A stretch of DNA of 41,487 nt from Akkermansiaceae bacterium (GTDB lineage: Bacteria; Verrucomicrobiota; Verrucomicrobiia; Verrucomicrobiales; Akkermansiaceae), in NCBI GenBank assembly GCA_013001695.1, contig JABDMC010000120.1, positions 1-41,487 of the forward strand, in the 5' to 3' direction. Under the pieces are notes generated by a model. That model searched no databases and had not been told where the DNA came from. It saw only the letters and a program-made list of their open reading frames with translations. Position 1 is the first letter of the stretch. Each line of letters starts with the position of its first letter. Position numbers and translations under genes: made by a program. Below are positions 29,835 to 41,487 of this stretch, piece by piece.

Positions 29835-30512
29835 ATGAAACCACTTCAATTCCCGTCCATGAGTCTCGGGCTTCTCGCCCTGGCTTCCCTCGCTGCCCCG
29901 GCAGCCACCCTCGTCGAGTTCGACTTCGATGACCAGAACTCCGCCGCGAGCGTCGAGGCGGCTGCTCTCCTCGATGCCGGCGACTTCACGTCGAACAACG
30001 TCACCGACCTCGGCTATTACCATCGTGCCGGCGCGGACTTTGAGCGCCTCCTGAGCGCTTGGGGAGACGACCCCGGCGAGCCGGCCGATTCAAATGAGTA
30101 CGTCGAGTTCGCCTCGACGGTCACCGGCGAGAGCGTGACCCTCGAGCGGTTCTCGTTCAGTCTCCAGCATTCCGCCGCCGGGCGGACCAGCAGCGACCAG
30201 ATCCAGGTCGCGTGGGACCTCAACGGCGGCGGGTTCCAAACGATCGGGATGGGCGGTTTGGACGTCCGCGGCGAGGATGAACCGCTCTTCACCTACAACT
30301 TCCTGCTCGGAATGGCCCCCGCGCTCGGGGACCTCCAGACCGCTGACGTCGTCACCTTCCGCATCTACGGCGACCTGCGTGACGACACCACCGCCTACCG
30401 GTTCGACAACGTCAGGCTCTTCGGCCACGGCGTCCCGCTTCCGGTCCCGGAGCCGTCGGCGCTCGCCATGCTGGGGGCCGCCCTTGGGTTCGCCTTCCGG
30501 CGGCGGCGGTGA
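29835..30512 (+). CDS. PEP-CTERM sorting-domain protein
   Basis: This is a 225-aa exported protein. The N-terminal signal is MKPLQFPSMSLGLLALASLAAPAA. The mature part is a jelly-roll-like beta domain (LVEFDFDDQNSAAS, EYVEFASTVTGESVTLERFSFSL, AYRFDNVRLFGHG). The C-terminus is a complete PEP-CTERM signal: the PEP triplet at residues 205-207, a hydrophobic helix (SALAMLGAALGFAF) and the basic tail RRRR. Such tails are recognised by an exosortase/EpsH-type enzyme, which is expected elsewhere in the genome but is not in this window. The role is probably extracellular matrix or surface display. It converges with the DUF1080 gene 38 bases downstream. Confidence 0.92.
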   Translation: MKPLQFPSMSLGLLALASLAAPAATLVEFDFDDQNSAASVEAAALLDAGDFTSNNVTDLGYYHRAGADFERLLSAWGDDPGEPADSNEYVEFASTVTGESVTLERFSFSLQHSAAGRTSSDQIQVAWDLNGGGFQTIGMGGLDVRGEDEPLFTYNFLLGMAPALGDLQTADVVTFRIYGDLRDDTTAYRFDNVRLFGHGVPLPVPEPSALAMLGAALGFAFRRRR

Positions 30513-32867: not shown

Positions 32868-32918
32868 GAATTCCCCGGGGAATTCCGGGTTGATTTTGCG
32901 GCACCGGTGACCCGGAAT
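32868..32918. promoter_or_regulatory. Overlapping palindromes upstream of the motor operon
   Basis: GAATTCCCCGGGGAATTC (32868-32885) is an 18-bp perfect palindrome. Its right edge overlaps the left arm of ATTCCGGGT (32882-32890), which pairs with ACCCGGAAT (32910-32918) 19 bases away, with CACCGGTG between them. The two hairpins share bases, so they exclude each other. They lie 42 bases after the stop of the PQQ-like gene and about 100 bases before the ATG of the channel gene. They may terminate the upstream transcript or form a regulatory switch or protein site. Confidence 0.45.
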
Positions 32919-33018: not shown

Positions 33019-34311
33019 ATGCTCGTCGCCTGCCCGAACTGCAAAGCCAGCCTGGATGTCGCCCCCGAACACTACGGCCACACCGTCCAGTGCCCGGCGT
33101 GTTCCGAGAAACTCACCATCCAGCCCCCCGCGGAGTCGTCCTCGAAGTCGGGCGGCGGGAGGCCCGAGCGCGCCGGCTGGGCCGAGGAGGATCACGCCAA
33201 CATCAACCTCCTGAAGAGCTTCGCCATCGGGCTCGGAATCACGGTCGTCTTCCTCGGTCTCATGTTCCCGTTGAAGGGAACCCGCCTCGGCGACATCTTC
33301 CTCGACCGGGGCTGGGTGAACTACGCGGAATCCCTCCTCTTTTTCTGGGGCCTCGCCATGCTCGGGATGAAGGTCATCAAGAACCGCCAACAGGAGCGGG
33401 CCGCGATCCTGAACCTCTTCCCCGAACACCTCGGCAAGGAGATCCATTCCGGAAACGTCGATGGCTTCATCGAGAACCTCTACAAGACGCCCCTCACCCT
33501 CCGCGACAGCATCATCGTCAACCGCATCCGCAAGGCCCTCGAGCTCTTCGAGATCCGCAATGACAACGCCGAGATCGCGGCCTTCCTGGAAACCCAGTCG
33601 GACCTCGATGCCAACCGCTCGACGGGATCCTACACCCTGCTCAAGATCTTCCTCTGGGCGATTCCCATTCTCGGATTCATCGGCACCGTCATGGGGCTTT
33701 CGACCGCGGTGGGGGCCCTCGACATCGGCGAGGCCAGCGGCGACCCGGAGGCGCTGAAGGGCGCCATCAGCGACCTCACCGGCGGGCTCGGCATCGCCTT
33801 CGACACCACCCTGCTCGGTCTCATCCTGTCGCTCCTGCTCAACTTCCCGCTGGCGGCGGTCCAGAAGAAGGAAGAGGAGACGCTCACCATCATCGACACC
33901 TTCTGCACCGAGAAGCTCCTGCCCAAGCTCAACGACAGCAAGGCCTCCTCGAACGAGGAGATCCTGCAGCAGGCCGACAGTCTTCCGGAACTCGTCGGGT
34001 CGCTGGCGCGGGCCCACGAGACATTCCTGGAGAACCTCAATTCCTCGACGACGCAGATCCGCGAGACCTCGGAGATGCTCCACAACAACCTCGCGCGGCA
34101 CCAGCAAACCCTCGAGACGGCCTTCACCGGGGCGGCCGAGAAGCTCAGCGAGTCGAGCAGCGAGATCTTCATGAAGTCCCACGCCGAGCTCGAGCAGACC
34201 TTCCAGCGCATCTCGACCGGGATCGACCTCATCAACAAGTCCCTCCGGGACCTCGGCGAGCGCCAGATCCCCAACGACGCCAGAAAAAAGAAGGGATTCT
34301 TCAGCCGCTGA
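33019..34311 (+). CDS. MotA/TolQ/ExbB-type channel subunit with N-terminal zinc ribbon
   Basis: This is a 430-aa inner-membrane protein, probably the ion-channel (stator) subunit of an energy-transducing motor. The ATG at 33019 gives a start with a zinc ribbon: Cys5-Pro-Asn-Cys8 and Cys25-Pro-Ala-Cys28. Four hydrophobic segments follow: about 66-86, 104-120, 209-233 and 256-281. Segment 3 has the TolQ/ExbB signature IPILGFIGTVMGLSTAVGAL (residues 215-234) and segment 4 the typical GGLGIAFDTTLLGLILSLLL (255-274, including Asp262-Thr263-Thr264). A long soluble C-terminal tail with helical, coiled-coil-like sequence (about 282-430, with EKLSESSSEIFMKSHAELEQTFQRI) resembles tails that extend from the channel in other motors. 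It is the first gene of a three-gene operon (18-bp and 6-bp gaps). The driven partner is unknown. Confidence 0.9.
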   Translation: MLVACPNCKASLDVAPEHYGHTVQCPACSEKLTIQPPAESSSKSGGGRPERAGWAEEDHANINLLKSFAIGLGITVVFLGLMFPLKGTRLGDIFLDRGWVNYAESLLFFWGLAMLGMKVIKNRQQERAAILNLFPEHLGKEIHSGNVDGFIENLYKTPLTLRDSIIVNRIRKALELFEIRNDNAEIAAFLETQSDLDANRSTGSYTLLKIFLWAIPILGFIGTVMGLSTAVGALDIGEASGDPEALKGAISDLTGGLGIAFDTTLLGLILSLLLNFPLAAVQKKEEETLTIIDTFCTEKLLPKLNDSKASSNEEILQQADSLPELVGSLARAHETFLENLNSSTTQIRETSEMLHNNLARHQQTLETAFTGAAEKLSESSSEIFMKSHAELEQTFQRISTGIDLINKSLRDLGERQIPNDARKKKGFFSR

Positions 34312-34329
34312 TGTAGCCTGAACCACGCC

Positions 34330-35145
34330 ATGCCCCGCCGCCGGAAAACAGACCATGGAGGAGTGTCCCTCTTCCCCTTCATGAGCATTCTCGCGAGTCT
34401 CATCGGCGTGCTCACCCTGCTCATCAGCGTCAACATGATCATCAAGGAGAAGGAGCGGGATGACCTCACCCAGGAGGAATTCGACCGCGCCAAGCTCAAC
34501 CAGACGCTCAAGACGCGGATTGCGAAGCTCGAGAAGGACCTGCAGAAGCTCGAGGAGCAGGTCAAGAAGGAGAAGACCACCACCGTGGAGCTCATGAAGC
34601 TCAAGGAGCGGGAGATCGCCCTGCGCAAGAAGCTGGAGGAGATCGCGAAGGCGAAGGACCCGAAGCAGACCGACGCCGAACTCCAGAAGATCCTCGAGAA
34701 CCTCGAGATCGAAACCAAGGCGCTGGTGAGCGGCCAGCCCCCGCTGACCAAGAGGCGCGATGAGCTCCTGGCCGAGCTCAAGCGGATGCAGACGCCCCCG
34801 AAGGACGCCGAGCGCGTCGTGATCCGGCCGGGCGGGGTCGGGTCACGGACCGCCCGGAACATCTTCTTCGTGGAGTGCAACTCGACGGGCATCGTGATCC
34901 GGCAGGAGGACGCCGAACCGGTTCCGGTGCCGACCGGGGCGATCACGAAGAACGACGCCTACGGGGACTTCCTCGAGAAGGTCAAGAAGACCCGCGACTC
35001 GATGGTCCTCTTCCTCGTCCGGAAGGCCGGCAACACCGCCTACCTGTGGGCGGCGGGCCACGCCGAAACGCAATTTGAAGTGAACACCGGCAAGCTGCCC
35101 GTCCCGAAGGACGGGGAGATCGACCTCTCCCTCTTCGACCTCTGA
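34330..35145 (+). CDS. ExbD/MotB-like subunit lacking a membrane aspartate
   Basis: This is a 271-aa single-pass protein. The N-terminus is basic and cytosolic (MPRRRKTD), then a membrane helix from about Phe15 to Ile38 (FPFMSILASLIGVLTLLIS), then a long charged coiled coil (about 40-155), then a periplasmic domain (about 176-271, NIFFVECNSTGIVIRQ and FLVRKAGNTAYLWAAGHAE). The layout is that of ExbD/TolR/MotB-type partners of the channel gene just upstream. In ExbD the membrane helix contains a conserved proton-carrying Asp; here the equivalent FMSILAS stretch has Ser and no Asp in the helix. It overlaps no gene and is separated from the next one by 6 bp. Molecular load unknown. Confidence 0.82.
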   Translation: MPRRRKTDHGGVSLFPFMSILASLIGVLTLLISVNMIIKEKERDDLTQEEFDRAKLNQTLKTRIAKLEKDLQKLEEQVKKEKTTTVELMKLKEREIALRKKLEEIAKAKDPKQTDAELQKILENLEIETKALVSGQPPLTKRRDELLAELKRMQTPPKDAERVVIRPGGVGSRTARNIFFVECNSTGIVIRQEDAEPVPVPTGAITKNDAYGDFLEKVKKTRDSMVLFLVRKAGNTAYLWAAGHAETQFEVNTGKLPVPKDGEIDLSLFDL

Positions 35146-35151
35146 CGACCC

Positions 35152-36264
35152 ATGGCCCGCCGATCCAAAGTCTCCGGAGACGCCGTCAACCTGGACTCCC
35201 TGATGGACGCCCTCACCAACGTGGTGGCGGTGCTCATCCTCGTCCTGATTCTCGTCCAGACCGAGGTGACCCAGAAGGTGGCGGAATTCTTCGAGAACCT
35301 CGAACCGGCCACCCCCGAGCAGGTCGAAGCGGCCCAGGAAAAGCTCGAGGAACTCCGGGAGCAGGAGGAACAGCGCCGGGACCTCCTCAAGGAGGATCCG
35401 CCCACGCCCCAGCAGATCGAGGAGGAAAAGCGCAAGCTGGCCCTGCTCGAGAAGAACGTGAAGCTCGACGAGACGCTCCTCATCGAGCTCGAGAAGCTCC
35501 GCAAGCTGGAGAAGGAGGCCCGCGAGAAGCGCGACGTCGAGTTGAAGGAAACGAACATCCTGCAGGAAGAGATCGCGAAGCTCGAGGCCCGGATCGACAC
35601 CACGCCGGACCTTTCGGCGGCTCCGCCAACGGTGGTCACCATCCCGAACAGCCGTCCCATCCCGTCGAATGCCAAGGTCTATTACGCTATCGTCCGCGGG
35701 AACCGGGTGCACTTCATCGACCCGCACACGCCGGCCGAGATGTTCTACGATGAACTCAAGGACAACCGGCGCGAGTTGTACCTCGAGCGCATCAAGGCCA
35801 AGGGGGCGGACATCCAGGTGTATAACCACCAGAAGACCCGCGATCATTTCAAGGACTTCGACTTCAAGAACGGCCGCGACCAGAAGGTCGTCATCACCAG
35901 CATCCCGACGCACAAGTATCTGGCGCTCGACATCATCCCCGATCTGAAGAACGGCGGCACCTCCCTGGAGGAGCTGGAAGCGCCCGACAACCGCTTCATC
36001 GGCATTCTCAAGACGCTGCGGAACGACCGGAAGAACGTGCTCTTTTTCCGGGTCCACCCCGACAGCTTCAACACCTACCTCGTGGCCCGCGCCCTGGCCG
36101 ACAAGGCCGGGGTCCCCGCGGGCTGGGAGGTCCACACCAACCCGATGTTCCGGCACATGCTCACCGAGGTGGAGGTGAACCGCCTCAAGAAGCCGGACCC
36201 GCCGGACCCGAATGCTCCCAAGCCTCCGGCCCGGCCGCCGAGGATCGGGCCCAAGCTCGATTGA
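35152..36264 (+). CDS. ExbD/MotB-like subunit with membrane aspartate
   Basis: This is a 370-aa single-pass protein and the third gene of the motor operon. Its N-terminus (NLDSLMDALTNVVAVLILVLILV) has the ExbD pattern: Asp15 and Asp19 at the start of the membrane helix (Asp19 aligns best with the proton-carrying Asp of ExbD). A long coiled coil follows (about 45-150, LEKEAREKRDVELKET). The C-terminal globular domain (about 173-345) has VYYAIVRGNRVHFIDPHTP, VLFFRVHPDSFNTYLVARALADKAG and VPAGWEVHTNP; its strand order resembles the end of the preceding protein (IFFVEC then VLFLVRK and AYLW), so the two C-domains are probably related. The tail is proline-rich and basic. It converges with the DUF1501 gene 21 bases downstream. 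Confidence 0.83.
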   Translation: MARRSKVSGDAVNLDSLMDALTNVVAVLILVLILVQTEVTQKVAEFFENLEPATPEQVEAAQEKLEELREQEEQRRDLLKEDPPTPQQIEEEKRKLALLEKNVKLDETLLIELEKLRKLEKEAREKRDVELKETNILQEEIAKLEARIDTTPDLSAAPPTVVTIPNSRPIPSNAKVYYAIVRGNRVHFIDPHTPAEMFYDELKDNRRELYLERIKAKGADIQVYNHQKTRDHFKDFDFKNGRDQKVVITSIPTHKYLALDIIPDLKNGGTSLEELEAPDNRFIGILKTLRNDRKNVLFFRVHPDSFNTYLVARALADKAGVPAGWEVHTNPMFRHMLTEVEVNRLKKPDPPDPNAPKPPARPPRIGPKLD

Positions 36265-36285: not shown

Positions 36286-37728
36286 TCAGGCGATGAGCTC
36301 CGGAATGATTTGCCCGCCGAACTGCGAGAGCTGCTTGTAGCGGCCGGCGTGGAAGTAGGTGAGCTTGTTGTCGTCGAGGCCGAGGAGGTGCAGGAGGGTG
36401 ACGTGGACGTCGCGGATGGGGTGCGCGCAATCGACGGCCATGGCGCCGAGTTCGTCGGTGGCGCCGACCACGCCGGGTTTCACGCCGCCGCCGGCGAAGA
36501 GCATCGTCATGGCGTCGATGTTGTGCCCGCGGCCGAGCGAGTATACGCCGCCGCGCCGGTTGTTGTCGGGGGTGCGGCCGAACTCGCCGGTCCAGATGAC
36601 GAGGGTGTCGTCGAGCATGCCGCGCTGCTTGAGATCCCTGATGAGGGCCGCCATCGGCTGGTCGACGCTCCGGATGCGGGCGGAGTGGCCGCGCTCGAGG
36701 TAGTCGTGGCTGTCCCAGCCGCCGGAGAAGATCTGCACGAAGCGGACCCCCTCTTCCACCATGCGGCGGGCCATGAGGCACTGCCTTCCGAAGTCGGCGG
36801 TCTCCTTCCGGTTCATGCCGTACATCTCGCGGATGTATTCGGGTTCGCTTTTCAGGTCGATGACGTCCGGCACCTCCATCTGCATGCGGTAGGCGAGCTC
36901 GTAGGACTCCATGCGGGCCGCGAGGTCGGCGTGCTCGGGGTGGTTCGCGGCGTGCCGGGCATTCATGAACGCCAGGGCGTCGAGCGTCTTGCGCTGGTGC
37001 TGGCGCGACTTCCACGGTTGCGACTGGAGGTCGAGGATCGGCGATCCCTGCGGGCGCAGGCGCGTGCCCTGGTAGTGGGCGGGGAGGAAGCCGTTCGACC
37101 AGTTCCGCGAGCCGCCCTGCGGGAGGGCGAGTTCGGTCATCACGACGTAGCCGGGGAGGTTCTGATTGACGCTGCCCAGCCCGTAGGTTGCCCATGCCCC
37201 GAGGGCCGGGTCGGCGCCGAGGCGGCTGCCGGTGTTCATGTGGAAGAGGGCCTCGGGGTGGTTCAGCGACTCGGCCTGGCAGCCGCGGAAGTTGCACAGT
37301 TCATTGGCCACTTCCGGGTCGGCGAGGAACTTCCACTGGTCGCACATCTCGATGCCGGTGTCGCCGACCTTGCGGAACTTGAACGGGCTGCCGACATAGA
37401 ACTGGAAGGTTCCGGCGGCGAGGCCACGGTCGTTCTTCGATTCGGTCTTGTGGAGTTCGTTGAGCTTCGGCTTCGGGTCGAAGGTGTCCATGTGGCCCGG
37501 GCCGCCTTCCATGAAGAGCATGATGACATTCCTGGCGCGCGCCGGGAGCATCGGCCGCTTCGGGGCAAGCGGACCCGCCTCCGCCATGGCGCCGGCAGGC
37601 AGGCTCTCCCTGGCGAGGAGGCTGGTCATGGCGACGGACCCGAGCGAGGCGCCGAGGCCGTAAAGGGCCTGGCGCCGGGAGAGCACCGCTGATGCCCGCT
37701 GATGAGCGCTGATGTTTGTTTCAGTCAT
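36286..37728 (-). CDS. DUF1501 protein, Tat-exported, sulfatase-like fold
   Basis: This is a 480-aa protein from ATG 37728. The N-terminus has a twin-arginine signal (SRRQALYGLGASLGSVAM, Arg18-Arg19). The DUF1501 domain (alkaline-phosphatase/sulfatase-like) follows, with GGPGHMDTFDPKP at residues 75-87 and the usual GGWDSHDYLERGH, VIWTGEFGRTPDNNRRGG and HAGRYKQLSQFGG segments. Its partner is normally PSD1 (DUF1549/DUF1553), which precedes it here but is separated by the GxxExxY unit. Codons 6-16 are part of a 31-bp inverted repeat, so the sequence NISAHQRASAV is repeat-derived; a GTG at codon 15 (37686) would give a shorter Tat signal starting (V/M)LSRRQ. Its role, with PSD1, is generally thought to be in extracellular polymer metabolism, but the reaction is unknown. 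Confidence 0.93.
   Translation of the reverse strand: MTETNISAHQRASAVLSRRQALYGLGASLGSVAMTSLLARESLPAGAMAEAGPLAPKRPMLPARARNVIMLFMEGGPGHMDTFDPKPKLNELHKTESKNDRGLAAGTFQFYVGSPFKFRKVGDTGIEMCDQWKFLADPEVANELCNFRGCQAESLNHPEALFHMNTGSRLGADPALGAWATYGLGSVNQNLPGYVVMTELALPQGGSRNWSNGFLPAHYQGTRLRPQGSPILDLQSQPWKSRQHQRKTLDALAFMNARHAANHPEHADLAARMESYELAYRMQMEVPDVIDLKSEPEYIREMYGMNRKETADFGRQCLMARRMVEEGVRFVQIFSGGWDSHDYLERGHSARIRSVDQPMAALIRDLKQRGMLDDTLVIWTGEFGRTPDNNRRGGVYSLGRGHNIDAMTMLFAGGGVKPGVVGATDELGAMAVDCAHPIRDVHVTLLHLLGLDDNKLTYFHAGRYKQLSQFGGQIIPELIA
37683..37713. repeat. Left inverted repeat of the GxxExxY unit
   Basis: Three CGCTGATG motifs at 37687, 37697 and 37707, with outer end GCACC. It overlaps codons 6-16 of the DUF1501 gene. 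Matches the reverse complement of 38211-38241 at 27/31 positions (differences at positions 12-14 and 24). Confidence 0.88.
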
Positions 37729-37796
37729 GGGAATCCAAATTGTATGGGAGTTTGGCGGGGTCAGAGAGGAAATCCGATAATCAACACGGGGTGTCT

Positions 37797-38204
37797 TCAG
37801 CGCATCTCCGGGTCGAGATGCTCGCGGATCACAAAACGCTTCCATTCGACTTCCTTGATGGGCCCGAAATTAACCAGGTAGCCGACGGGCATTCGTGTGA
37901 TGCGCATGTAGTTGAGGAGTTGGGCTTCGTGTTCCGGAGCCAGTGCGGATACGGATTTCAGCTCAACGACGATCTTTCCGAAGACCACGATGTCGGGGAT
38001 GTAGCGCTTCTTCAGTTCTTGTCCTTTGTAATAAACCCGCAGTCCCTGCTTTGGCTGGCACGGGATCCCCTGGGCCTTCAGTTCGAGTTCGAGGCTTTCC
38101 TGGTAAATCTCCTCGAGGAGGCCGCCGCCAAGATCGTTGTGGACCTCAAAAACAGCCCCCATCAAGTCGTAGCCTTCCTTGGCCAGTGGTTTCGTCGTGC
38201 TCAT
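37797..38204 (-). CDS. GxxExxY family protein (PD-(D/E)XK nuclease fold)
   Basis: This is a 135-aa protein from ATG 38204; an in-frame ATG at 38222 inside the right repeat would add six residues. The name-giving motif is Gly28-Leu-Leu-Glu31-Glu-Ile-Tyr34 in the first helix, followed by LELELKAQGIPC. A PD-(D/E)XK core is visible: Pro70-Asp71 in YIPDIVVFG, then Glu81-Leu-Lys83 in VVELKS, and a helix with AQLLNYMR. The length and motifs match the family (related to PDDEXK_3). The cellular role of the family is unknown; the fold suggests DNA cleavage or binding, which is not shown. The gene is visibly more A/T-rich than its neighbours and lies inside a unit bounded by inverted repeats, so it was probably acquired separately. 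It has the same orientation as the interrupted operon. Confidence 0.93.
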   Translation of the reverse strand: MSTTKPLAKEGYDLMGAVFEVHNDLGGGLLEEIYQESLELELKAQGIPCQPKQGLRVYYKGQELKKRYIPDIVVFGKIVVELKSVSALAPEHEAQLLNYMRITRMPVGYLVNFGPIKEVEWKRFVIREHLDPEMR

Positions 38205-38210
38205 TTCCTT

Positions 38211-38241
38211 ATCAGCGATCATCAGCGTCTATCAGCGGTGC
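38211..38241. repeat. Right inverted repeat of the GxxExxY unit
   Basis: Three ATCAGCG motifs at 38211, 38221 and 38231 (exact 10-bp period), outer end GGTGC. It begins 7 bases upstream of the preferred start codon of the GxxExxY gene. The PSD1 stop codon is at 38251-38253, only 9 bp beyond its outer end. Confidence 0.88.
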
Positions 38242-38250
38242 CTCTTCCCA

Positions 38251-41205
38251 TCAATACAGATAGATGAACTCATTCGAGTTGAACAGCACCAGGCAGAGGT
38301 CGGCGAGGGCTCTTGTGTCGGGGGGGACGTCGGCGGCGTGCGGGTCGGGGGTGTAGTTCTCGAAGGCCGGGAGGATCTCCTCGTACTCGAAGGTGTCGCC
38401 GGTGAATTCCTCGACGAGGGAACGGGTGATCCGGGTGGGGAACTCCGGGCGTTCGGGGCGGACGTCGCGGTGGTACTTCCGCATCTCGTTGACGTAGGCG
38501 ACAAGCCTGTCGAGTTCCTGCGGCGCGGGATTGCGGACGAAGGCGAGGCGCACGGCGCGCTTCACCTGATCCTCCAGCGTGTTGGCTTCCCTTTCGAGTC
38601 GCTGCGCGAAGGCGATGGAGCGGGCCGTGGCGACGTCGCTGTTCATGAGCGTGAAGGCCTGCGGCGAGACCGAGGCCGAGTCGCGGTCCGCGCACGAGTC
38701 ATTCGGGCTCGGCCGGTTGAAGGTTTCGAGGAACGGGTTCGCGAGGCCGCGCACCCGGTAGGCGTAGATGCTGCGGCGGTTGCGCTGCCCGGGGGTGGGC
38801 GACGGCTGGTAGGCGGGCGCGATCGAGAACTGGATCATGCGCGGCTGCAGGGCGACCTCCATGTTCATCTGCGGCCTGGCCGGCAGGCCCCCGGTATCCG
38901 GGTTCAGCTCGCCGGTGATCTTGAGGATGCCGTCGCGGATCTCCTCGGCGCTGAGGCGGCGGATCGGGAAAAAGGCGAAGAGGTCGTTGTCGGGGTCCTC
39001 GTTGGCGAGCTTCCCGTGTGCCGGGTGCCGGCCGGACTGCTGGTAGGTCTCCGACATCATAATGAGCTTGTGGAGGCGCCTGAACGTCCAGCCGTTCTCG
39101 ACGAAGTCGGCGGCCAGCCAGTCGAGCAGTTCCGGGTGGGTCGGCTTGGCGCCTTTCACGCCGAAGTTGTTCGGGTTCCCGGCGATCGGCTTGCCGAAGT
39201 GATACTGCCAGATGCGGTTCACGATGGATCGCGTGGTGAGTTGGTTGCGCGGGTCGGCGATCCACCTCGCGACGGCCAGCCGGCGGCCGTCGAGCTTGTC
39301 GGTGACGCCGTAGGGGTCGCCGCGCGGATTCTCGACCGGCACCCCGAGGGCGCTGAAGACGCCCGGGGTGACTTTCTCGCCCGGCGCGGTGAGCGCCCCC
39401 CCGCCGAGGATGCGGCTGTCGGGCCGCCAGTCGGCGTCGCCCCTGGTGTTGATCCGCAGCTTGCGGGCGTTGAGGCTCTTCGGATCGGGCCCGTTGTAGA
39501 CCGACTGCACCATCGGTTCGTAGCGCTCGAGGCGGCGCTTCCAGATCCACTCGTCCTGCTCGCGCACCTTGAGGCGGCCCTGCTCCTCGGGGCTCAAGCC
39601 GACATGGCGCGGCGGCTTTTCGTCGTCCGGGAGGGCCTTGCGGTCCGCGTGGGAGACGTACTCCTTGTTGTTCCGGCGGTACCACTCGCGGGCCGCGGAC
39701 TCGCGCTTCTCGCAGAGTTCCCGGCGCTTCTCGTCGGCAAACTCGTGAAGGCGCTTCGCCATCGCCCTGCTTTCCTTGAAGCCGTTGCGGTTCTCTTCGC
39801 CGAGGAAGGGGGCGGGACGCTCGGCGAGCTGGGTCGCGGCGAAGGCGGCATACATGCGGTAGTAGTCGCGCGCCGGAAGCGGGTCGAACTTGTGGTCGTG
39901 GCACTTGAAGCAGCGCATGGTGGTCGCCAGGAAGGTCTGGCCGACGGAATTGATGACATCGTCGATGTAGAGCTGGCGGGCTTCGGGGGCCTTCACCATG
40001 GCGGGATCCCACGGTCCCATCCGGAGGAAGGAGCTCGCCACGAGCATCTCGGCTTCATCGGCATTGTACTGATCTCCCTTCTCGCGCGCCTCCTGGAACT
40101 TATTCCAGTCCTTGAGGCGCTTCCGCAGGGAGGCGTCGGCCAGCTCGTCGCCGGCGATTTGCTCGATGACGAACTCATTGTAGGGCTTGTCGTCGTTGAA
40201 GGCGCGGATGACGTAGTCGCGGTAGCGCCAGGCGTTGGACCGCTCGTAGTCGTTCGAAAAGCCGCCGGTGTCGGCGTAGCGGGCCACGTCGAGCCAGTGC
40301 TGCGCCCAGCGCTCGCCGTAACGCGGGCTTTCCAGGAGGCGGTCGAGGAGGTCGCTCCATGCCGTCGCCGGGTCCCCCTCCCAGGCGAGGGCGAACTCGC
40401 GGACTTCCTTCGGGGTCGGCGGCAGGCCGGTGAGGTCCCAGGTGGCGCGGCGAATGAGCGTCGTGTAGCCCGCCCGCGGCGCGGGCTCGTAACCGGCGCT
40501 CTTCAGTTTCGTGCGGACGAAGGCATCGACGGGATTCGCGGTTCCGGGTAACTGCGGCTTGACCACCGGGCGGAACGCCCAGACGTCTTCCGGCTTGTAG
40601 CGGCGGTAGGTCCAGTCGTCGCTGAGTCCGCCGGAAGTCTCCACGAGGACGCCGTCCTCGGTGACCTCGCGCTGCCGTTCCGCGAGGCGGATGGTTTCCT
40701 GGGCGGCATCGTCCGGCCACGGGGCGCCGAGGTTGATCCATTGTTCAACGAGGGCGATCTGCTCCTCGGTGAGGCGGTCGTTCTCCTTCGGCGGCATCTC
40801 GAAGTCGGGGTCCTCCCACTTGATGGCGGTGATGAGGAAGCTCTTCGAGGCGTCGCCCGGGACGAGGAGGTCGTCGATGAACTCGCCGCCCTTCAGGATC
40901 GCCTCGCGGGTCCGCATGTCGAGGCCGCCCTTGAACTCCTCCTCGCCCGTCTTCGGGTCGATCCCGTGACACACCATGCACTTATCGGCGAGGAGCGGCT
41001 TGATCTTCAGCGTGAAGAGGCGGTCCCCCTGCGCCAAGGCTTCGGAGGCCGAGTCCCCCTCGCCGGGCCCGGCGGGTAGTTCCTCCTTGGCCACCGCTAC
41101 GGTGGACAAGGAGGCCAGGAGCAGGAAGAGGGAGAGCGGGTGTTTCCTCGCGTTGGTGGAAAAAAAGCCCCGGCAGCGGCGAGATATCCCAGCCGCGGGT
41201 GCCAA
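38251..41205 (-). CDS. PSD1/DUF1549-DUF1553 protein with planctomycete cytochrome c domain
   Basis: This is about 984 aa if read from a TTG at 41205; the true start is uncertain. The frame is open upstream to an ATG at 41439 and beyond, but that part reads through palindromic repeats and has no coding character. A signal segment (HPLSLFLLLASLSTVAVAKEE) lies soon after the TTG. Then come a PSCyt1-type domain with a heme-binding-like CMVCH (about residue 76), DUF1549 (PSCyt2, about 226-430; FVRTKLKSAGYEPAPRA, RRATWDLTGLPPTPKEV, RYGERWAQHWLDVARYAD), a second CxxCH (CFKCHDHKFDPLPARDYY, about residue 432), and DUF1553 (PSD1, about 639-900; RRLAVARWIADPRNQLTTRS, NRIWQYHFGKPIAGNPNNFG). It ends NSNEFIYLY. 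Such proteins are exported and co-occur with DUF1501; electron transfer or polysaccharide metabolism is suggested for the family. It precedes DUF1501 in the same direction, with the GxxExxY unit between. Confidence 0.9.
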   Translation of the reverse strand: MAPAAGISRRCRGFFSTNARKHPLSLFLLLASLSTVAVAKEELPAGPGEGDSASEALAQGDRLFTLKIKPLLADKCMVCHGIDPKTGEEEFKGGLDMRTREAILKGGEFIDDLLVPGDASKSFLITAIKWEDPDFEMPPKENDRLTEEQIALVEQWINLGAPWPDDAAQETIRLAERQREVTEDGVLVETSGGLSDDWTYRRYKPEDVWAFRPVVKPQLPGTANPVDAFVRTKLKSAGYEPAPRAGYTTLIRRATWDLTGLPPTPKEVREFALAWEGDPATAWSDLLDRLLESPRYGERWAQHWLDVARYADTGGFSNDYERSNAWRYRDYVIRAFNDDKPYNEFVIEQIAGDELADASLRKRLKDWNKFQEAREKGDQYNADEAEMLVASSFLRMGPWDPAMVKAPEARQLYIDDVINSVGQTFLATTMRCFKCHDHKFDPLPARDYYRMYAAFAATQLAERPAPFLGEENRNGFKESRAMAKRLHEFADEKRRELCEKRESAAREWYRRNNKEYVSHADRKALPDDEKPPRHVGLSPEEQGRLKVREQDEWIWKRRLERYEPMVQSVYNGPDPKSLNARKLRINTRGDADWRPDSRILGGGALTAPGEKVTPGVFSALGVPVENPRGDPYGVTDKLDGRRLAVARWIADPRNQLTTRSIVNRIWQYHFGKPIAGNPNNFGVKGAKPTHPELLDWLAADFVENGWTFRRLHKLIMMSETYQQSGRHPAHGKLANEDPDNDLFAFFPIRRLSAEEIRDGILKITGELNPDTGGLPARPQMNMEVALQPRMIQFSIAPAYQPSPTPGQRNRRSIYAYRVRGLANPFLETFNRPSPNDSCADRDSASVSPQAFTLMNSDVATARSIAFAQRLEREANTLEDQVKRAVRLAFVRNPAPQELDRLVAYVNEMRKYHRDVRPERPEFPTRITRSLVEEFTGDTFEYEEILPAFENYTPDPHAADVPPDTRALADLCLVLFNSNEFIYLY

Positions 41206-41400
41206 CCCGCGGACAGGACGGGAACAAAAGACAGAGAGCCCCGGGAGGGGCGAAGCAAAAAGGTATCGTGGGAGCAAGTGGTGAATCCGGCGGGTTGTGT
41301 CGCCCCTGCCGGGGCTCTGGAAATTTGGACCTCCATGTTCCGCGGGTTGGCACCCGCGGCTAAGATGTTTGGCCCCTGCCGGGGCGGTGCTTGGCCGGCC
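41182..41400. repeat. Palindromic repeat cluster at the 5' end of the PSD1 gene
   Basis: Two copies of CCGCGGGT-N4-ACCCGCGG lie at 41193-41212 and 41340-41359 (loops GCCA and TGGC, so the copies are inverted relative to each other). Around and between them are three GCCCC-N4-GGGGC hairpins (41238-41251, 41302-41315, 41372-41385). The cluster looks like a composite intergenic repeat and runs into the likely translation start of PSD1. Confidence 0.8.
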
Positions 41401-41447
41401 AGGATATGTTGCCGCCGGGGCTTGGGCATCGCGTTTCATGGTAGCAG

Positions 41448-41487
41448 TCAATTCGGCGACCCGGCGTCGTGCATCTCCTGGATTTCG
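41448..41487 (-). CDS. Possible 3' end of a gene upstream of PSD1 (partial)
   Basis: On the minus strand one frame enters from the window edge and reads EIQEMHDAGSPN before a TGA at 41450-41448. Twelve residues are too few to identify a family; the sequence looks like an ordinary C-terminus. If real, it is a same-direction gene ending just before the repeat cluster and would support a PSD1 start downstream of the repeats. Confidence 0.22.
   Translation of the reverse strand, partial: EIQEMHDAGSPN

Follow-up and report, generated by a model that had tools for sequence, protein, structure and literature searches.

Can an ion-driven motor of the TolQ/ExbB type be built around two unlike partners, only one of which carries the aspartate at the start of its membrane helix? 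TolQR and ExbBD are 5:2 motors, and the question is raised by a cassette at positions 33019–36264 of the 41,487-nucleotide stretch of Akkermansiaceae DNA analyzed here (the window). The cassette consists of three open reading frames, A, B, and C, which lie in this order on the plus strand (Table 1). An earlier note on this DNA had described them as a channel gene followed by two single-pass partners with coiled coils. The reading frames and a Pfam match agree with that description, and its coordinates and residues are right.

The channel assignment of A is based on a match to MotA_ExbB (PF01618), whose 38.7 bits pass the Pfam gathering cut-off of 22.9. The ATG at 33019 is the start that agrees with the homologues; an upstream ATG at 32917 also gives an open frame. 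The protein consists of an N-terminal zinc-ribbon-like segment with four cysteines (aa 1–34), the membrane core, and a helical C-terminal tail (about aa 310–430). A Zn_ribbon_4 match to aa 1–31 is sub-threshold, and the cysteine pairs are kept in most homologues in the alignment. Thr223 and Thr264 are invariant among the aligned homologues and fall on T158 and T186 of PomA, that is, on the pore threonines of TM3 and TM4. A is present in one copy in the source genome. In four homologues (L109, L112, L122, and L124) the open frame of A is about 950–1000 aa long and apparently has a longer C-terminal tail, as in ZorA.

The profile of B matches C proteins and vice versa, which means that the two partners are related. 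Each has a coiled coil of about 100 residues and, as the earlier note had said of the C-terminal domains, the two resemble each other there, now in predicted fold. For both AlphaFold models (mean pLDDT 84.1 for B and 83.7 for C) the best structural match is the TolR structure 5by4. For B this match has a Z of 7.6 and an rmsd of 2.5 over 81 aligned residues, with three ExbD structures in the next five rows; for C the values are 8.2, 2.4, and 87, with the next row at 6.2. Hence, a TolR/ExbD-like periplasmic domain is predicted at the C-terminus of B as well as of C, with a large insert in the latter; the Z values are middling and say nothing on function. By sequence, neither B nor C matches PF02472 (ExbD/TolR), and a whole-genome search with this profile gives nine other ExbD proteins. 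PDB sequence searches with B and C return coiled coils and chance-level matches only. The claim that the partners have no recognizable peptidoglycan-binding domain is therefore correct for the sequence and does not hold for the predicted fold.

The membrane helices begin close to the N-termini, which read ...VSLFPFMSILAS in B and ...VNLDSLMDALTN in C. Position 19 of B and position 19 of C are equivalent in the alignment of the two helices. C has the aspartate that ExbD and TolR proteins have at the start of the helix, and it has a second carboxylate, Asp15, one helical turn away. B has a serine instead, in the window as well as in 108 other loci. That only the second partner of the window carries an aspartate was thus read correctly from the start.

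Table 1. Positions of the cassette genes and of the residues discussed in the text, in window coordinates.
Feature	Position	Strand	Basis or remark
A, MotA/TolQ/ExbB-type channel, 430 aa	33019..34311	+	Pfam MotA_ExbB, alignments, PomA alignment
Two CxxC pairs of A (Cys5/Cys8, Cys25/Cys28), zinc-ribbon-like N-terminus	33031..33102	+	Sequence
Codon of A Ile210, TM3 position before LWAIP	33646..33648	+	Profile column 236; mostly Val in S, Ala in D
Codons of A Thr263-Thr264, aligned with PomA T185-T186	33805..33810	+	Thr263 to Ala in state D
B, first partner, 271 aa; TM helix 15–44, coiled coil ending near 153, TolR-like domain predicted at 177–257	34330..35145	+	
Codon of B Ser19, position of the ion-carrying Asp in TolR/ExbD/MotB	34384..34386	+	
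C, second partner, 370 aa; TM helix from 14, coil to about 150, predicted TolR-like domain 175–337	35152..36264	+	
Codons of C Asp15-Ser16-Leu17-Met18-Asp19	35194..35208	+	

Our survey covered 240 genomes of the source's order, and a genome was counted as a carrier if it had a match to A at E 1e-60 or better. The cassette is present in 137 of these genomes, usually with a single full-length copy. We found 177 distinct loci with a readable B, 160 of which are of the full type, and these 160 fall into two states. State S, which is that of the window, comprises 109 loci and combines Ser in B with Asp15 and Asp19 in C and Thr263 in A. Both aspartates are present in S loci wherever C is readable, save for one C that is truncated at 15; three S loci carry Ala16 in C. 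State D comprises the other 51 loci and combines Asp in B with Ala210 and Ala263 in A and, where C is readable, with Val15, Ala16, and Asp19 in C. The pore residues of the channel co-vary with the state of B and C, and not one of the 160 loci is mixed. Asp19 of C is kept in every full-type locus read. With 109 distinct loci showing the same gene order and the same Ser/Asp pattern, the arrangement is not due to chance. The pairing of a partner with Asp and a partner without it is conserved to this extent; it falls short of being universal, since B and C both have Asp in the 51 sister loci.

Some genomes in the survey deserve a separate remark. One of them (G672) contains both cassettes, one in state D and one in state S (L240 and L241). 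Seven loci (L112; L084, L085, L088, L124, L131, and L135) carry the labels Klebsiella pneumoniae or Akkermansia muciniphila, which conflict with their cassettes and their lake-type sample names. They are probably mislabelled metagenome bins. Habitat, as far as it can be read from such titles, was too unreliable to be used.

The cassette resembles TolQR and ExbBD in its PF01618 channel, the single N-terminal helix of each partner, the Asp in C, and the predicted TolR-like domain in both partners. It differs from them in having two unlike partners, a Ser for the Asp in B, coils of about 100 residues, and a zinc-ribbon-like segment on A, as well as in lacking a PF02472 match and a conserved neighbor. 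The source genome also contains six ordinary ExbB/ExbD clusters (contigs C27, C49, C109, C138, C342, and C365; L294–L308), three of them with two ExbD genes. In two of these two-ExbD operons (C138 and C109) both partners have Asp. The same is true of AglQ and AglS of Myxococcus, which both match PF02472 (PMC9389320; PMC3169522). The AglR-AglQ-AglS system is like the cassette in that one channel gene is followed by two TolR-like genes, whereas B has Ser in state S and a PF02472 match is lacking in B and in C. A review (PMC9389320) names it as an open point whether AglQ pairs with AglS in a heterodimer. For the PVC group, the passages of PMC12204202 (Mol Biol Evol 2025) read here describe tolQ with paired unlike tolR-like genes, with vWA/TPR neighbors or vWA partners with one Asp each. 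These tolQ-tolR-tolR-vWA arrangements share with the cassette the superphylum and the combination of a TolQ-like gene with an unlike partner pair, but the cassette has no conserved vWA or TPR neighbor. A Ser/Asp pairing with an exchangeable core is not found in these passages. In the open-licence papers searched, we found neither the Ser/Asp pairing nor the S/D dimorphism nor an exchangeable core described.

How often did the state change? The columns that are diagnostic for S or D (16 in A, 9 in B, and 11 in C) are confined to the membrane parts and adjoining segments. The tree built from the membrane core of all three proteins contains a single S/D change, even with all diagnostic columns removed. 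A tree of the output parts (the tail of A and the periplasmic parts of B and C) contains nine changes, at least seven of which are forced by supported branches. The output parts are incompatible with one D clade in the AU test (delta lnL 1110, p-AU 6.5e-42). The core, in turn, rejects the output-tree clade L092/L093/L098/L118 (p-AU 2.7e-30) and the output groups L041/L042 (p-AU 2.2e-4) and L091/L136 (p-AU 0.018). A short piece of the core, columns 85–180 of A alone, gives two S/D changes, not one. In seven of seven independent pairs A, B, and C change state together. The membrane parts of the three proteins thus form a matched unit that changed between S and D once. Because the core changed only once, co-evolution residue by residue can account for one event only, and we rejected the idea that the S/D coupling is built on many independent residue changes. 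The repeated events are, judging from the sequences, recombination or shuffling of output parts against the core.

Some S and D cassettes share a chromosomal site. L093 (S) and L118 (D) are flanked by six reading frames that are 87–97% identical, and L091 (S) and L136 (D) by four that are 82–99% identical. The core of L118 is 85% identical to that of another D locus and 64% identical to that of the S locus at its own site. In the DNA of L118, the A core, the B helix, and the C helix are closest to the D relative; the A N-terminus, the A tail, and parts of B and C are closest to the S relative with the same flanks. Along the cassette, identity therefore alternates between the two relatives. One could argue that this mosaic is an artefact of tree building or a result of convergence, since the core proteins are conserved and short and quick trees were used. 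We consider this very unlikely: the core grouping survives the removal of every diagnostic column, the AU tests reject both single-tree alternatives, the flanking genes place S and D at the same site, and the core of L118 has its closer relative at a different locus. Segment exchange is the reading we keep. The core segments alternate with the other parts in gene order and have always stayed matched through repeated exchange, which points to selection for a matched set.

The order of the changes can be put forward from the trees and from more distant relatives. The short-channel relatives have Asp in B, so Asp in both partners is probably the older condition. The core tree places D as a single clade within S, which means that D would have regained its Asp. 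The sequence of states was thus probably Asp in both partners, then S, then D. Four of the loci with short channels (L057–L060) lack the zinc-ribbon-like segment and continue with two single-helix partners that have Asp in both where read; an extra gene is conserved alongside in all four. Two other distant short channels (L061 and L062) adjoin genes that look FHA-domain-like by eye.

What kind of machine would such a cassette encode? We think it probable, if by no great measure, that the three proteins form a heterodimeric, ion-driven motor of the 5:2 type, A5:B1:C1, whose pore would have a single Asp position in state S and two of them in state D. Stoichiometry, ion use, and rotation are what we infer here. 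B and C would form a heterodimeric central shaft within a pentamer of A, and each would contribute one helix to the pore. In state S the ion-carrying carboxylate would then be on C only (Asp19, with Asp15 a turn below), facing a Ser on B. Ions would be transferred via one chain of the shaft, giving about five ion steps per turn as compared to ten. In state D, B has an Asp as well, while C loses Asp15 and Thr263 of the channel becomes Ala. Force would run along both coiled coils, which are nearly equal in length, to the TolR-like domain of each partner in the periplasm, and also to the tail of A in the cytoplasm.

One argument for a heterodimer comes from state S. An A5B2 homodimer would lack Asp in this state, which argues for a heterodimer and is no proof of it. 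With B2 as the shaft, the ion position would be left without a carboxylate, hence a functional motor needs C. In addition, B is kept in S and has Asp in D alongside the changes in A and C, which favors a shared pore. However, if A served two homodimers, B and C would each be expected to co-vary with A in the same way. Two further tests of the heterodimer were dropped. Coil lengths of B and C correlate with a rho of 0.26, and lengths that barely vary carry little information; the charge trend of the coils, basic in B and acidic in C, is weak (65 of 76).

It is also conceivable that one channel serves two complexes, with A5C2 as the motor and A5B2 as a non-conducting or structural partner. A B2 complex without Asp would be inert in S, and the matched core is accounted for as well, since A would need to fit B and C alike. 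Yet the Asp of B in state D is at exactly the in-pore position while C loses Asp15, which is simplest if both share one pore, and the coils of B and C are near equal in length and their predicted folds are the same. We regard two complexes as unlikely. Still less probable, in our view, is that B sits outside the pore, as a TonB/TolA-like force transducer bound to the periphery of an A5C2 motor. The missing Asp in S would fit this role, and edge-bound transducers beside TolQ-like motors have been described in this superphylum (PMC12204202). However, B and C profiles match each other, the C-terminal domain of B matches TolR, and the helix of B aligns at the Asp position and has the Asp in 51 sister loci.

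If a heterodimeric shaft turns in the pore of A, which ion drives it? Thr223, Thr263, and Thr264 of A align with T158, T185, and T186 of PomA, which form the Na+ filter of PomAB and are conserved in Na+ stators, while H+ stators have Ala at PomA positions 158 and 185 (PMC10374538). Unlike PomAB, the cassette has no MotB-type partner and no rotor coupling. S could be a Na+-type motor and D an H+-type motor, a reading that concerns the ion only and is compatible with the A5:B1:C1 motor. The PomA alignment backs the residue mapping, and S combines the Thr triad with Ser16 (at the PomB T21 position) and Asp15 in C, where D has Ala263, Ala16, and Val15. We nevertheless find such an ion switch somewhat doubtful, because Thr223 is retained in both states, Leu268 of A is at the PomA Ala190 position in both, and C has Ala16 in the three S loci mentioned above. 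The ordinary ExbB-type channels of the source genome share the Thr-Thr pair, which weakens it as a Na+ signature and makes it non-diagnostic on its own. Energetics are of no help, as nqrB, our marker for Na+ energetics, was found in 1 of 80 genomes and is uninformative. Ala263 and the loss of Ser16 in C do suggest a different ion site in D.

We found no conserved neighbor gene: the largest family accounts for 11 of the 146 genes on the upstream side and for 12 of the 128 on the downstream side. Hence, the cassette stands alone. In the window itself, two genes on the minus strand that are convergent with the cassette (36286–37845 and 38251–41451) look by eye like DUF1501 and a planctomycete-type cytochrome c (DUF1549/DUF1553). 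Also by eye, 37797–38222 on the minus strand looks like a GxxExxY-type protein. Upstream, 29835–30512 on the plus strand looks by eye like a small secreted protein whose end (VPEPSALAMLGAALGFAFRRRR) resembles PEP-CTERM.

Could the cassette be a Zorya-like anti-phage system? The ZorA profiles of PADLOC do find A, with a best E of 1.8e-10, and ZorA and A are alike in being channels with a helical cytoplasmic tail. In the PDB search the nearest solved channel sequence is 8vvn, a long-tailed MotA/TolQ/ExbB-domain protein, and ZorA entries come next with the full-length profile. The similarity of the channels is general only, though, as the match spans the general channel core and the helical tail. 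There is no ZorB-type partner either: the OmpA-type ZorB match is at noise level, and B and C have no Pfam domain and match TolR instead. Nor is there a conserved fourth gene beside the cassette. A role in defense of this kind is therefore extremely unlikely. For the task of the proposed A5:B1:C1 motor, the closest analogues would be devices such as TolQR and AglRQS, which transmit force across the envelope.

Our full proposal, which we put forward tentatively, goes further than the heterodimer itself. The shaft would have one Asp position, and two in the derived state; the two states would differ in the number of ions per turn or in the ions used; and the core would be inherited and exchanged as a matched unit apart from the output parts.

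If a natural motor that has one Asp position is indeed widespread, then the role of the second carboxylate becomes testable without mutants. The natural S/D pair, which close relatives carry at one and the same site of the chromosome, is a ready-made comparison. Matched inheritance is an argument that paired partners can act as one unit, as could be asked of AglQ and AglS. The membrane parts of three proteins that change as a matched set are a natural test of how such motors turn.
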